A stretch of DNA of 64,000 bases from Garicola koreensis (lineage in GTDB: Bacteria; Actinomycetota; Actinomycetes; Actinomycetales; Micrococcaceae): contig NZ_JACIBT010000001.1 of NCBI RefSeq assembly GCF_014195445.1, positions 806,001 to 870,000 of the forward strand. The letters are read 5' to 3'. Made by a program: the position numbers and the translations under genes. The notes beneath the pieces are model-generated. The model made no database searches, had not been told where the DNA came from, and saw only the letters and a program-made list of their open reading frames with translations. This document shows, in pieces, positions 8,019 to 41,668 of the stretch. Within the stretch, counting starts at the first letter, position 1. The number at the start of each line of letters is the position of its first letter.

Positions 8019-8578
8019 CGCTCACCCCGGGGCTGGGTCTGAGGAGGCTCGGTTTCCGTGAGCTCGGTTTCGGCAGCCTCGGTTTCAGTGAGCTCGGTTT
8101 CAGTCGGCACTGGGGCTTCGTGGCCGAGGAACTCTTCCAGCAGTCGCTTCTGCAGGGTGAACATTTCGGTGCGGGGTGCGGCCTCGTGATGGTCGTAGCC
8201 CAGCAGGTGCAGCACCCCGTGGGTGCTCAGCAGGCAGAGTTCATCGATCAGCGGGTGGCCGGCGGCCGTCGCCTGAGCCTGCGCCACTGCCGGGCACAGC
8301 ACGACGTCGCCCAACACCCCGGCCTCCACCGGGTCGTGGGGGCTGCCGGGGGTGAGCTCATCCATGGGGAAGCTCATCACGTCGGTGGCCCCGGGCAGAG
8401 CCATCCATTCCAGGTGCAGCTCTTCCATCTCGGCCTCGTCCACCAGGGTGATGGCCAGTTCCACCTCTGCACCAAGCCCAAGCTCGGCGTAGAGGAAGGC
8501 GGTCAGGTCGGTGAGCTCAGCCAGGTGCTCTACGGTGATGAGCCGACTGTCGCTGGAGTCGTCCAGGGAGAGCGTCAC
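8015..8578 (-). CDS. ybeY: Endoribonuclease YbeY (16S rRNA maturation)
   Basis: Metal-dependent RNase that matures the 3' end of 16S rRNA. The zinc-binding signature HGVLHLLGYDH is at about residues 120-130 and the conserved TDVMSFPM at about 65-72. The start is GTG, overlapping the phoH stop by four bases. The last 35 residues are an acidic extension of repeated TETEL-type units that the core enzyme does not need. These come from four tandem 15-bp DNA repeats. Confidence 0.94.
   Translation of the reverse strand: MTLSLDDSSDSRLITVEHLAELTDLTAFLYAELGLGAEVELAITLVDEAEMEELHLEWMALPGATDVMSFPMDELTPGSPHDPVEAGVLGDVVLCPAVAQAQATAAGHPLIDELCLLSTHGVLHLLGYDHHEAAPRTEMFTLQKRLLEEFLGHEAPVPTETELTETEAAETELTETEPPQTQPRGER
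8047..8106 (-). repeat. 15-bp tandem repeat, 4 units, in the ybeY 3' end
   Basis: Units at 8047-8061, 8062-8076, 8077-8091 and 8092-8106, all built on CTCGGTTTC on the plus strand. They encode five-residue units of the TETEx type. Copy-number change would keep frame and lengthen or shorten the acidic tail. Confidence 0.85.
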
Positions 8579-9702
8579 GACTCCTCCTGCTCGGAGGGTT
8601 CGGAGGTGGATCTCTGCGGGGAGGAGCTCCGCTGGGTGGCTGAGCGTTGGGACGGCGGTCGTTGGAAGCGGTCGCCGCGGCGCTGACCGCCCCGATGCGA
8701 GGACGCGCCGCGTTGGGCATTGTTGTGCCGCTCATAGGCGTCGACGATGCGTCCGACCAGTTCGTGGCGGACCACGTCCTCGGAGCCGAATCGGGAGATG
8801 GAGATGTCCTCGACGCCCTCGAGGATCTCCAACACGGTGCGCAGCCCGGAGTCGGTGCCGCGGGGCAGGTCGATCTGGGTGATGTCTCCGGTGACTACGA
8901 TCTTGGAGTTGAATCCCAGTCGGGTCAGGAACATCTTCATCTGCTCGGCAGTGGTGTTCTGCGCCTCATCCAGGATGATGAAGGAGTCGTTCAGGGTCCT
9001 GCCGCGCATATAGGCCAGCGGGGCCACTTCGATGGTGCCGGAGGCCATCAGCTGCGGGATCGACTCCGGCTCCAGCATGTCGTGCAGCGCGTCATAGAGC
9101 GGACGCAGGTAGGGGTCGATCTTTTCGTTCAGCGAGCCCGGCAGATAGCCCAGGTTCTCCCCGGCCTCCACGGCGGGGCGGGTGAGAATGATCCGGTTGA
9201 CCTCTTTGGCCTGCAGCGCCTGCACGGCCTTGGCCATGGCCAAGTAGGTTTTGCCGGTGCCGGCCGGGCCGATTCCGAAGAGCACAGTGGACTCGTCGAT
9301 GGCGTCCACATAGTCTTGCTGGTTGATGGTCTTGGGCCGGATGGCCCGCCCCCGGTGGGAGAGGATGTTGGTGGCCACCATGCGTGCGCTGCTGGGTGCC
9401 TCCTGGGCGCGGACCATCGTGGAGATCTGTTCGATGATCTCTTCGCTGGCGGTGGTGCCGGAGGCGGCCAGCGTCTTCAGCTGGGTGAGGATCTCCACGA
9501 TCTGGGCGGCGTCCTGGGCCGGTCCGGTGACGGTGATCTGCTGGTCGCGCAGTCCGATGTCGGCCTCCGGATACAGGCCCACCAGGATGCGCAGCGCCAG
9601 GTCCTGGATGCCCAGGGTCCGGAACATGGTCTCGGGGTCGGCGAAGTGAACCTCGCGCTCAGTGGGGGTCGTCGTGGCAGTCTCGGTAATCAGGTGCCTC
9701 AC
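8575..9702 (-). CDS. phoH: PhoH-like ATPase
   Basis: A 375-residue P-loop protein of the PhoH family, often coupled to YbeY and probably acting in RNA metabolism. Walker A GPAGTGKT is near 145-152, Walker [10 protein letters not shown] near 240, and LPRGTDSG follows. A short KH-like N-terminal segment precedes the ATPase domain. The C-terminal 45 residues are Arg/Ser/Gln-rich and probably disordered. The start is GTG at 9702; it overlaps ybeY. A 59-bp palindromic element lies between it and rsmE. Confidence 0.92.
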
Positions 9703-9778
9703 TTGGTCGGTCTACGGGTGCTTCCATTCTACGTCCAAGCCGCCATTGAGCCATCGGTGCCCGGCCTTCTCCACTTTC

Positions 9779-9837
9779 CGCAGTGCTTCTGCCGGATCGT
9801 CGACCTCCAGCTTCACGGTCAGGCAGAAGCGCCACGA
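9779..9837 (-). repeat. 59-bp palindromic element, copy 1 (between rsmE and phoH)
   Basis: Arms GCTTCTGCC (9785-9793) and GGCAGAAGC (9822-9830) are perfect inverted repeats around a 28-base loop. The element matches 41031-41089 at 48 of 59 positions without gaps and in the same orientation. It begins just after the rsmE stop on the transcribed strand. It may be a 3'-end or processing hairpin, or a dispersed REP-like element. Confidence 0.75.
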
Positions 9838-9838
9838 T

Positions 9839-10654
9839 TCACCAGTCCCACCGGCCCAGCAGCAGCTGGGTCGCGGCGATGGCGGCCGGTCCGGCGCTGG
9901 AGCTGCGCAGCACATGGTGCCCCAGCCGGGCGGTGCGGGCACAGGCGGCAGTCAGCAGCTGCAGCTCCCGGTCGCTGATCCCGCCCTCGGGGCCGATCAC
10001 CAGGTGCAGCTCATCCAGCGGCCGCTGCCCCTGCGGTGCGCCGAAGTCCTGCAGCACACCGAGCTCCTGCAGCACAGTCTGCAGCGAGATCTTTTCGGCC
10101 TCGTGCAGCACGACGACGCCGACCCGCTGCCCCTTCTCGCCCCGCCCCTTCTCGCCTTGCGCCTGCACGTACTGGGCGGTGCTGTGCAGCGGGCGGACCT
10201 CAGGGATCGCGGTGCGGCGGGTCTGTTTGGCCGCGGTGGTGACGGTGTTGACCCATTCGGCGTGCTTCTTCGCCTCGCGGCCGGGCTTCCACCGGGCCAC
10301 CGACCGTTCGGCCTGCCACGGAATCACTGCCTCGACCCCCAGTTCGGTGGCTGATTCCACCGCCTGCAGGTCGCGTCTGTCTTTGGCCAGGGCCTGAACC
10401 AGCACCAGGTGCGGCAGCGGCGGCTCCTCGGTGCTCACCGCAACGATCTGCACCTGCAGCTGGCCGGTCTCCACTGCGACGACGACGCCCTCGGCCCGTC
10501 TGCTGCGGGTGTCGGAGAGCTGGACCGCTTCGCCGGAGCCCAGCCGCATCACTGTGGCCGCATGGTGGCCCTCGGCCCCGTCCAGCATGATGGTCGAACC
10601 TGGCTCAGCGGCGTCGAGCCGTCCGGGCGCCAGGTGGAACAGCGGAGCAGTCAT
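9839..10654 (-). CDS. rsmE: 16S rRNA m3U1498 methyltransferase RsmE
   Basis: SPOUT-class enzyme that methylates U1498 of 16S rRNA. The knot motifs are LVIGPEGGISDREL near 222-235 and LRSSSAGPAAIAA near 249-261; the latter is usually LRTETA, so this is a divergent form. An N-terminal PUA-like domain is indicated by AEGHHAATVMRLGSG. An insertion rich in EKG repeats lies near residue 170. It follows dnaJ by 23 bases and ends two bases before the first copy of the 59-bp element. Confidence 0.92.
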   Translation of the reverse strand: MTAPLFHLAPGRLDAAEPGSTIMLDGAEGHHAATVMRLGSGEAVQLSDTRSRRAEGVVVAVETGQLQVQIVAVSTEEPPLPHLVLVQALAKDRRDLQAVESATELGVEAVIPWQAERSVARWKPGREAKKHAEWVNTVTTAAKQTRRTAIPEVRPLHSTAQYVQAQGEKGRGEKGQRVGVVVLHEAEKISLQTVLQELGVLQDFGAPQGQRPLDELHLVIGPEGGISDRELQLLTAACARTARLGHHVLRSSSAGPAAIAATQLLLGRWDW

Positions 10655-17611: not shown

Positions 17612-17652
17612 AGGGAAGGTCCCGCACGATCAGATCGTACGGGACCTTCCCT
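17612..17652. terminator. Strong hairpin terminator after rpsT
   Basis: A 13-bp perfect stem (AGGGAAGGTCCCG with its complement) continues after one mismatch into a 6-bp inner stem, making a 41-base near-perfect palindrome. It lies 44 bases past the rpsT stop. There is no U-tract, which is common in actinobacteria. Confidence 0.75.
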
Positions 17653-40259: not shown

Positions 40260-40991
40260 CTACTCCTTGGCGCGCTGTTGCGCCACCACGTGCTTGGCCC
40301 AGAGGTCCGGGCGCAGCTTGCGGGTGCGCTGGACCTGCTGGTCGCGGCGCCACTGGGCGATGTTGGCGTGGTGGCCGGAGAGCAGCACCTCAGGCACCGT
40401 GTGTCCGCGCCAGTCAGCGGGTTTGGTGTAGACCGGGTACTCCAGCAGCCCCTCGGAGTGGGACTCCTCAGTCAGCGACTCGGCGTTTCCCACCACCCCG
40501 GGGATGAGCCGGGTGATGGCCTCAACCATCACCACCACTGCGGCTTCTCCCCCGTTGAGCACGTAGTCGCCGATGCTGATCCGGCGCACGTCAAAGTGCT
40601 CTTCGGCCCAGTCGGTGAGGCGCTCATCGATGCCTTCAAACCGTCCGGGGGCGAAGACCAGGTGCTGGTGGCCGGCCAACTGTTCCGCGGTGGACTGGGT
40701 GAAGACCTCCCCTGCGGGGGTGGGAATGATCAGTGTGGGCCGCTGCGCAGCCTGCTCTGCGCGCTGGTTCAGCACCTCCTCCAGCGCCAGCGCCCAGGGT
40801 TCGGGCTTCATGACCATCCCGGCACCGCCGCCCACCGGCGGGGAGTCGACGGTGCGGTGCTTGTCTTCGGTGTAGTCGCGCAGGTCGATCCGGCTGATGC
40901 TCAGCAGCCCCTGCTGCTGGGCTCTGCCGATCAGCGACAGATCCAGCACCTCGAAGAACTGCGGGAAGATGGAGACGGCATCAATGCGCAT
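40260..40991 (-). CDS. trmD: tRNA (guanine37-N1)-methyltransferase
   Basis: Methylates G37 next to the anticodon, preventing frameshifts. SPOUT knot motifs: [12 protein letters not shown] near 54-65, [12 protein letters not shown] near 116-127 and [14 protein letters not shown] near 141-154, with a C-terminal [14 protein letters not shown]. The length of 243 is normal. The upstream gap to rimM holds the second copy of the 59-bp element. Confidence 0.96.
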
Positions 40992-41030
40992 CGCTGATCA
41001 GCCCCCTGACCGTTCCGTGTGCCCACGTAT

Positions 41031-41089
41031 CGCGGCGCTTCTGCCCCGTCGTGGAGCTCCAGCTCCACGGTCCGGCAGAAGCGCTGCGA
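41031..41089 (-). repeat. 59-bp palindromic element, copy 2 (between rimM and trmD)
   Basis: The outer arms of 15 bases pair with one mismatch (41031-41045 with 41074-41088). Inside, GTGGAGCT and AGCTCCAC form a second perfect 8-bp stem. It is 48/59 identical to 9779-9837 and lies 15 bases past the rimM stop on the transcribed strand, the same relative place as copy 1. Confidence 0.75.
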
Positions 41090-41104
41090 TCCACGCCAGA
41101 CTGC

Positions 41105-41668
41105 TCACGGGAAGAGCCCCGCCGGCGGGTCCAGCCGGATGCTGCGGGCCTCGGGATCAATCTGGGGAACCAGTTCCTCCACGAAGGGCACCATGACCTG
41201 TTCACCGGCGGCGGTGTCGACCACCAGCAGGTCCTGGGCGGGGCCGGGCAGCAGTTCGGCGACGGTGCCCAGCGGCTGATCCTCGCCGCTCACGCAGCTG
41301 AACCCCTCCAGCTGGTGGCTGTACCACTGGTCGTCCTCGGGGGCCTCCTCGGCCACATCGATGAACAGCACGGAGCCGCGCAGCGCCTCGGCGGCGTTGC
41401 GGTCGGTAATCTCATCGAAGCCGAGCAGGCAGATCTTCTTGTTCCACCGCTGGGAGCCCACGGTCAGCGTGGTGCGGGTGGTGTCCTGGGTGTGCTCTCC
41501 GGGTTCGCGGATCAGCTGCGCGCCGGGGGCCAGACGGTCAGTCGGCTCGTCGGTGAAGAGCTGGACGGTGACTTCGCCCCGGATGCCGTGGGGCTTGCCG
41601 ATGCGAGCGACCCGCAGACGCTCCCCGGGGTGGGTGGGCATCTGCGGGTCATCCTCAGTGTGTGCCAT
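41105..41668 (-). CDS. rimM: Ribosome maturation factor RimM
   Basis: Binds S19 during 30S head assembly. The N-terminal domain starts LRVARIGKPHGIRGEVTVQLFTD. The PRC-barrel C domain has YSHQLEGFSCV and DLLVVDTAAGEQVMVPFVEELV. The length of 187 is normal. It sits between the KH gene and trmD in conserved order. Confidence 0.95.
   Translation of the reverse strand: MAHTEDDPQMPTHPGERLRVARIGKPHGIRGEVTVQLFTDEPTDRLAPGAQLIREPGEHTQDTTRTTLTVGSQRWNKKICLLGFDEITDRNAAEALRGSVLFIDVAEEAPEDDQWYSHQLEGFSCVSGEDQPLGTVAELLPGPAQDLLVVDTAAGEQVMVPFVEELVPQIDPEARSIRLDPPAGLFP

Follow-up and report, generated by a model that had tools for sequence, protein, structure and literature searches.

REP-like palindromes in Garicola koreensis as probable solo copies of the ends of an AbiEi-DUF559 nuclease unit

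Two palindromes in a 64,000-nucleotide stretch of the Garicola koreensis genome (hereafter the window; C1:806001-870000) are probably REP-like solo copies of the palindromes that end a unit built around an AbiEi-DUF559 nuclease gene. This unit would measure ~1.3-1.5 kb and consist of a palindrome, a gene with an AbiEi-like, winged-helix-type N-terminus and a DUF559/Vsr-like nuclease C-terminus, and a second palindrome. Palindromes and genes of this type co-occur in the genus, the two flanks of a gene match each other with clear specificity, solo copies are found, and sites are shared between species. We further infer that the element is mobile and that its nuclease cleaves DNA.

Palindromes in the window and elsewhere in the genome

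The two copies in the window, at 9779-9837 and 41031-41089, are identical at 48 of 59 bases in a gap-free alignment, and both keep an exact 9-base arm (GCTTCTGCC-N28-GGCAGAAGC), just as the sequence-only reading of this DNA had described. Exact arms with a gap of 20-40 bases occur only at these two places in the window, and they were found in none of 100 shuffles. In the alignment frame of the covariance model, copy 1 covers 68 nt at 9774-9841 (72.8 bits; no strand assigned), overlapping the rsmE stop codon, and copy 2 covers 41026-41093 (84.1 bits; no strand assigned), with its paired arms at 41029-41090. The reported spacing was also correct: copy 1 lies one base behind the frame of rsmE (16S rRNA (uracil1498-N3)-methyltransferase; 9839-10654, minus strand; NF008693, above cut-off) and ahead of a phoH-like gene (8575-9702, minus strand; NF007827, E 1.3e-65, below the equivalog cut-off), and copy 2 lies 15 bases behind rimM (ribosome maturation factor; 41105-41668, minus strand; TIGR02273, above cut-off) and ahead of trmD (tRNA (guanosine37-N1)-methyltransferase; 40260-40991, minus strand; TIGR00088, above cut-off). 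All four gene identities were taken from NCBIfam models.

Folding of copy 2 clearly exceeded that of shuffles (z -9.9 on the plus and -6.1 on the minus strand), and the signal of copy 1 was weaker (z -4.7 and -2.3, respectively). No Rfam family reached its gathering score in the window. A 20-bp hairpin at 17612-17652, 95% complementary and with a 1-nt loop, lies outside the palindrome family.

The sequence-only reading had also called for a count of copies over the whole genome. We carried out this count in the 2.25-Mb assembly (27 contigs, ~80% complete) and found more than the two copies of the window. The exact-arm pattern is present at four places, namely the two window copies, one place between scpB and an rluB-like gene (L017) and one between polA and an Eis-like gene (L018). 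A covariance model built from these four detected eight places at E <1e-3, four of them strong and four weaker (C1:782714, C1:781356, C4:93982 and C4:7690). On the basis of these four and eight places, and of the absence of the exact-arm pattern from shuffles, a chance repeat was rejected. The suggestion that each copy stands right behind an rRNA or ribosome maturation gene suits only two of the four strong copies, the others following scpB and polA. The idea of a signal for this class of operon is likewise not supported, as two of the four fit the gene class; nor is the hairpin of any of the four followed by a T-run when read in the direction of the gene, so that they are not typical terminators. 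Covariation across the four exact-arm copies was not above that of shuffles; they are too conserved, and therefore provide no argument for RNA structure.

Nuclease genes between matching palindromes

Two of the eight model places flank a broken nuclease-like gene of ~1.1 kb (C1:781585-782647), 23 kb before the window. A protein model aligns to this gene as two segments, C1:781585-781797 and 781790-782647, that do not share a frame, and the gene's type combines an AbiEi-like N-terminus with a DUF559/Vsr-like nuclease C-terminus. When the palindrome behind the broken gene (L132) was used as blastn query against 211 kb of DNA from the same genome, it matched both window copies, the scpB|rluB copy, the polA|eis copy, one contig-4 copy and the two flanks of the gene itself; reversed queries, used as control, gave no matches in the same 211 kb. 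Palindromes 1.3-1.45 kb apart flank the same gene type in G. koreensis (L132) and in three relatives, G010 (L136), G021 (L140) and G015 (L143). Because the nuclease gene is broken in G. koreensis, its own palindrome family is probably no longer spreading.

PADLOC models of AbiEi match six of seven members of the protein family, with E values down to 1.5e-9. The Pfam model AbiEi_4 matches 14 of 24 members weakly (best E 1.7e-4, and below the cut-off for the member shown), and Pfam DUF559 matches the C-terminus of 8 of 24, also weakly (best E 2.3e-3). The C-terminal domain has the invariant residues E, D, E-x-D-G and K. No PDB sequence matched the protein at E ≤1, and this coding partner of the palindromes matched none of the known transposase classes.

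A profile made from seven such proteins matched 28 of 30 genus genomes, and the resulting census comprised 80 genes from these 28 genomes, with four short fragment matches left out. An early de novo palindrome detector missed too much and, once relaxed, reported mostly background, and a detector based on folding gave noisy output; the results given here were obtained with the self-match filter of the fold-based detector and with a gapped palindrome score. With minimum values of 14 for this score and 48 for the span, palindromes were present on both sides of 26 of the 80 nuclease genes vs 1 of 300 control genes (Fisher p 1e-18), and on either side of 52 vs 34 genes (Fisher p 3e-21), the controls coming from a pool of 578 genes of three genomes only. 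Neither side reached the threshold in 28 of the 80 nuclease genes. Palindrome pairs around aldo-keto reductase-like, lipoprotein-like and SDR genes were also considered; they look coincidental.

We then compared the upstream and downstream palindromes of the 28 genes that have two of them at a score of at least 13. Their median similarity was 36.5 within a gene vs 8 between genes; 25 of the 28 genes lay above the 95th percentile and 22 above the 99th, and in the remaining three the flank match was not beyond the 95th. The palindrome was common to all 27 gene pairs with at least 60% protein identity, to 6 of 11 pairs with 50-60% and to ~2% of pairs below 50%, so close nuclease relatives share their palindrome and distant ones do not. 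Over all pairs the correlation between palindrome and protein similarity was weak (Mantel Spearman 0.10, with 5 of 500 permutations as high), because most gene pairs are distant.

The proposed mechanism starts from the N-terminal domain. AbiEi proteins bind inverted repeats; for AbiEi and for Rv2827c, these repeats are paired and lie in the promoter of the protein's own gene (PMC7319586). By analogy with these two proteins, the AbiEi-like domain may bind the repeated unit of its own palindrome, of which there are two direct and two inverted copies. The DUF559-like nuclease would then cut at its own palindrome or at target gaps, repair or copying would spread or replace palindromes, and decay or loss of the gene would leave solo palindromes in place.

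Palindrome families and shared gaps in the genus

A blastn search with the element in 37 relatives returned nothing at E ≤0.001. Matches to the covariance model at E ≤0.1 were found in 17 of 30 genus genomes, that of G. koreensis included, and on these grounds an element unique to one species was rejected; this search scored no more than 150 first-look candidates in each genome. The consensus of the relatives is clearer, reading AAAATCGTAGAGCT, spacer, TCGTAGAGCTATAGCTCTACGA, spacer, AGCTCTACGATTTT, in which one unit is used twice directly and twice inverted. The copies of G. koreensis follow the identical plan in different letters. Many of the relatives' copies have A-run/T-run ends, and such copies could act as terminators. 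An Rfam search of 11 loci found only two SAM-IV riboswitches, beside and not at the elements; they adjoin palindromes of the TCGTAG family (L137:3272-3401 in G010 and L139:2159-2288 in G042).

The TCGTAG family has 26 members in the examined parts of G015 and G042, two of which are the flanks of a nuclease gene. According to simple gene calls, these members occupy 14 convergent, 9 tandem and 3 divergent gaps. G042 has ten palindromes of this family, which is that of G010 and G015, in the 220 kb examined (L428, L431, L433, L435, L436 and L442), and its two full nuclease genes carry other flanks; perhaps this is an orphan family there, as in G. koreensis. In G015, three palindromes of a GTCGCAT..CTATGCCATGTCCCA family lie within 6.5 kb near polA (L331:14700, L331:18408 and behind a gene ending near L331:12000), and a second nuclease gene precedes one of the three.

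These gap types bear on two other explanations. One is that the palindromes are operators: an AbiEi-like regulator would control its own gene through the upstream palindrome, and the solo copies would be regulon or titration sites rather than products of movement. The promoter binding by AbiEi and Rv2827c mentioned above (PMC7319586) is in keeping with this, as are the presence of the unit four times per palindrome and an upstream palindrome with a score of at least 14 in 45 of the 80 genes. However, 26 of those 45 genes also carry a palindrome behind the stop, the TCGTAG family is mostly situated off promoters, and the proteins have kept their nuclease-like domain, in which acidic and lysine residues are invariant. 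We thus regard operators as unlikely. The other explanation, to which we give still less credit, is that the palindromes serve the genes they follow, as bidirectional terminators or as RNA processing/stability signals, and are kept for that function. It would account for strong hairpins directly after stops, for the A-run and T-run ends in relatives and for the enrichment of the TCGTAG family in convergent gaps (14/26 vs 69/312 overall, Fisher p 0.0013). On the other hand, T-runs are missing from the strong copies in G. koreensis; in 18 of 29 genomes, rimM and trmD either overlap or have no more than 19 bp between them, and a full terminator at that place would split the operon; hairpins unrelated to the palindrome family exist in the same genomes; and the match of the palindromes to nuclease flanks would be left unexplained.

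To follow the sites of the four strong copies over the genus, we compared the orthologous gaps rimM|trmD, rsmE|phoH, polA|eis and scpB|rluB. By inspection, six genomes of one clade (G000, which is G. koreensis, G040, G038, G014, G004 and G001) carry palindromes at two to four of these gaps, and these differ in sequence from genome to genome, so that a given gap is occupied by different palindrome families in different species; no gap palindromes were seen by inspection in G013, G023, G005, G006 and G009 of the same clade. The clade was taken from a tree in which some branches are poorly supported. Further gap palindromes were observed in G011 and G015 at polA and in G039 at scpB|rluB. An automatic palindrome score agreed with inspection only in part: G038 and G004 were left out at rimM|trmD, G014 at rimM|trmD and G001 at scpB|rluB were missed, G038, G014 and G040 scored 12 at scpB|rluB, a value also reached by G002 and G022, and G018 scored 16 at polA.

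Sequence comparison provides a better test than this score, and for it we ran 20 gap palindromes from nine genomes against 96 palindromes from nuclease flanks. The best match was a nuclease flank of the same genome in 12 of the 20 (permuted labels: mean 0.96, maximum 8 of 20). For all 20, the best match lay above the best of 20 shuffles, narrowly so for scpB of G039. The eight that do not match their own genome best comprise two in G001 and one in G011 that match other genomes only, together with G040 rsmE, G038 rimM and G038 scpB, and narrowly G040 polA, for which another genome matches better. The eighth, in the scpB|rluB gap of G039 (L268), is a near-perfect palindrome of 75 nt with a score of 30 and no good nuclease-flank match (19 vs 17 in shuffles). 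Taken over the four gaps, the observations are consistent with palindromes that repeatedly reach, or are replaced in, a set of preferred gaps.

The scpB|rluB gap also bears on how solo copies arise. In G014, a whole nuclease unit, including the palindrome at each of its ends, lies between scpB and rluB, and G. koreensis has a solo palindrome at this place. Such a pair of sites could be read as the two states of a scar: a full unit would be inserted and its gene lost by recombination between the flanking palindromes, as in solo LTRs, with no separate mobilisation of the short copies. The ten TCGTAG-family palindromes of G042, whose listed nuclease genes are flanked otherwise, also agree with this. 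However, the G014 and G. koreensis sites hold different palindrome families, and 580 kb of G015 contain 16 members, two of them being the gene's own flanks, vs one gene of that family; scars would therefore require many complete insertions and losses. We consider scars a possible but less likely account, which is a variant of our preferred reading and overlaps with it. Several observations count against that preferred reading of REP-like solo copies of unit ends: the 28 nuclease genes below the palindrome threshold on both sides, the three two-sided genes whose flanks do not match, the weak domain matches and the eight gap palindromes that match their own genome less well. In addition, all comparable elements between G015, G042, G010 and G021 are at orthologous sites, which suggests slow turnover there; these four close species gave no clean empty/filled pair, and neither target duplications nor movement were observed.

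Known systems and occurrence outside the genus

The description of the element as a dispersed REP-like hairpin was right about its form, an intergenic palindrome in several copies, and does not extend to classical REP sequences, given the missing Y1 domain and the AbiEi/DUF559-type genes that are flanked. Like REP/REPIN-RAYT systems (REPtrons), the palindromes are short, dispersed and intergenic, often lie behind genes, form several families per genome and enclose a dedicated DNA enzyme gene between copies of the same palindrome. The flanked gene is AbiEi/DUF559-like here, whereas theirs encodes a Y1 HUH transposase, and REPs measure 20-40 bp according to an excerpt of PMC3733652, compared with ~60-90 bp and two direct plus two inverted units here. 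The Y1 domain (PF01797) is absent from 29 of 30 genus genomes, including G010, G015, G021 and G042, which are rich in elements and model matches. The only one in the 30 genomes is a lone Y1_Tnp domain (IS200/RAYT-type; L212) in a 106-aa open frame of G. koreensis (G000:C1:570565-570867). A RAYT partner was rejected because of this absence. Spread of a classical REP/REPIN by a RAYT is thus very improbable: the palindromic, intergenic and dispersed form and the one domain in G. koreensis would agree with it, but the domain is missing elsewhere and the palindrome-flanked gene is of another kind. The palindrome/nuclease unit works like a REP/RAYT system but, given the near-complete lack of Y1 domains in the genus, does not belong to that group.

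Other known systems share single features with this unit. MITEs and solo IS ends are also short, non-autonomous inverted repeats, and a coding element with related ends accompanies them in the genome; here, in contrast, each end is a complete palindrome, and neither a transposase of a known class nor a target duplication was found. The AbiE type IV toxin-antitoxin system has in common with it the AbiEi-like N-terminal domain (PADLOC, as above) and inverted-repeat binding by AbiEi (PMC7319586), and differs in that a DUF559/Vsr-like nuclease C-terminus and dispersed palindrome copies are present here. The weak Pfam match and the invariant residues of the C-terminus recall DUF559/Vsr-like domains of the restriction endonuclease fold. 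Among the matches listed, open-access papers naming DUF559 had no link to palindromes in their titles or abstract openings, and no description of DUF559/AbiEi genes paired with dispersed palindromes was found in the open-access literature represented there.

The gene-plus-palindrome pairs may represent a type of selfish repeat system that has not been described before. A bolder claim, which we put forward only tentatively and hold to be somewhat less probable than its opposite, is that Actinomycetota harbour selfish DNA of a categorically new class, in which an AbiEi-DUF559 nuclease would recognise its own palindrome of four units and copy or replace it. Each genus would have many such specificities, and families would compete for preferred gaps behind housekeeping genes, hence the different families per site across species. 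A nuclease element of the proposed kind would be a second, independent answer, next to RAYTs and REPs, to the question of how a dedicated enzyme keeps and spreads short palindromes, and it would suggest a function that can be tested for actinobacterial genes whose only name is DUF559 or 'AbiEi family antitoxin'. Nature provides several dozen pairs of protein and palindrome (one or more scored palindromes in 58 genes), from which a DNA recognition code could be derived. A further caution is that a hairpin behind a gene in these genomes can be the remnant of an element and not a terminator.

Outside the genus, a Collinsella aerofaciens gene annotated as 'hypothetical protein' (WP_148332043.1) has palindromes on both sides, with scores of 13 and 19 vs shuffle maxima of 12 and 8, and its flanks are alike (67 vs 21). 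No protein relative was found in phages at E ≤0.01; in viral contigs, 28 stretches fit the peptide pattern and none was confirmed as a protein relative. Searches of plasmid records with the protein gave no match with one query and three each with the others. In Tsukamurella tyrosinosolvens, the two flanks resemble each other in two of three genes (61 and 84, compared with 37 and 38 in shuffles), one of these genes being annotated as 'type IV toxin-antitoxin system AbiEi family antitoxin'; the palindrome scores of these two were not above shuffles, and the third gene shows neither feature. The flanks with the value of 84 vs a shuffle maximum of 38 belong to an AbiEi/DUF559-type gene (L424) and form no clear palindrome.

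The exact-arm pattern occurs in 74 stretches in contigs of 84,980 species and in 6 in viral contigs; all 80 were scored and the 22 best inspected. Apart from one repeat, most of them were taken for chance occurrences. This repeat comprises dispersed palindromes in Olsenella sp. An285 (L045, L050, L063 and L086) and in an Atopobiaceae MAG (L024, L051 and L059), with identical GCTTCTGCC/GGCAGAAGC arms, a gap of 30 and different surroundings, and may represent a further such family in Coriobacteriia.
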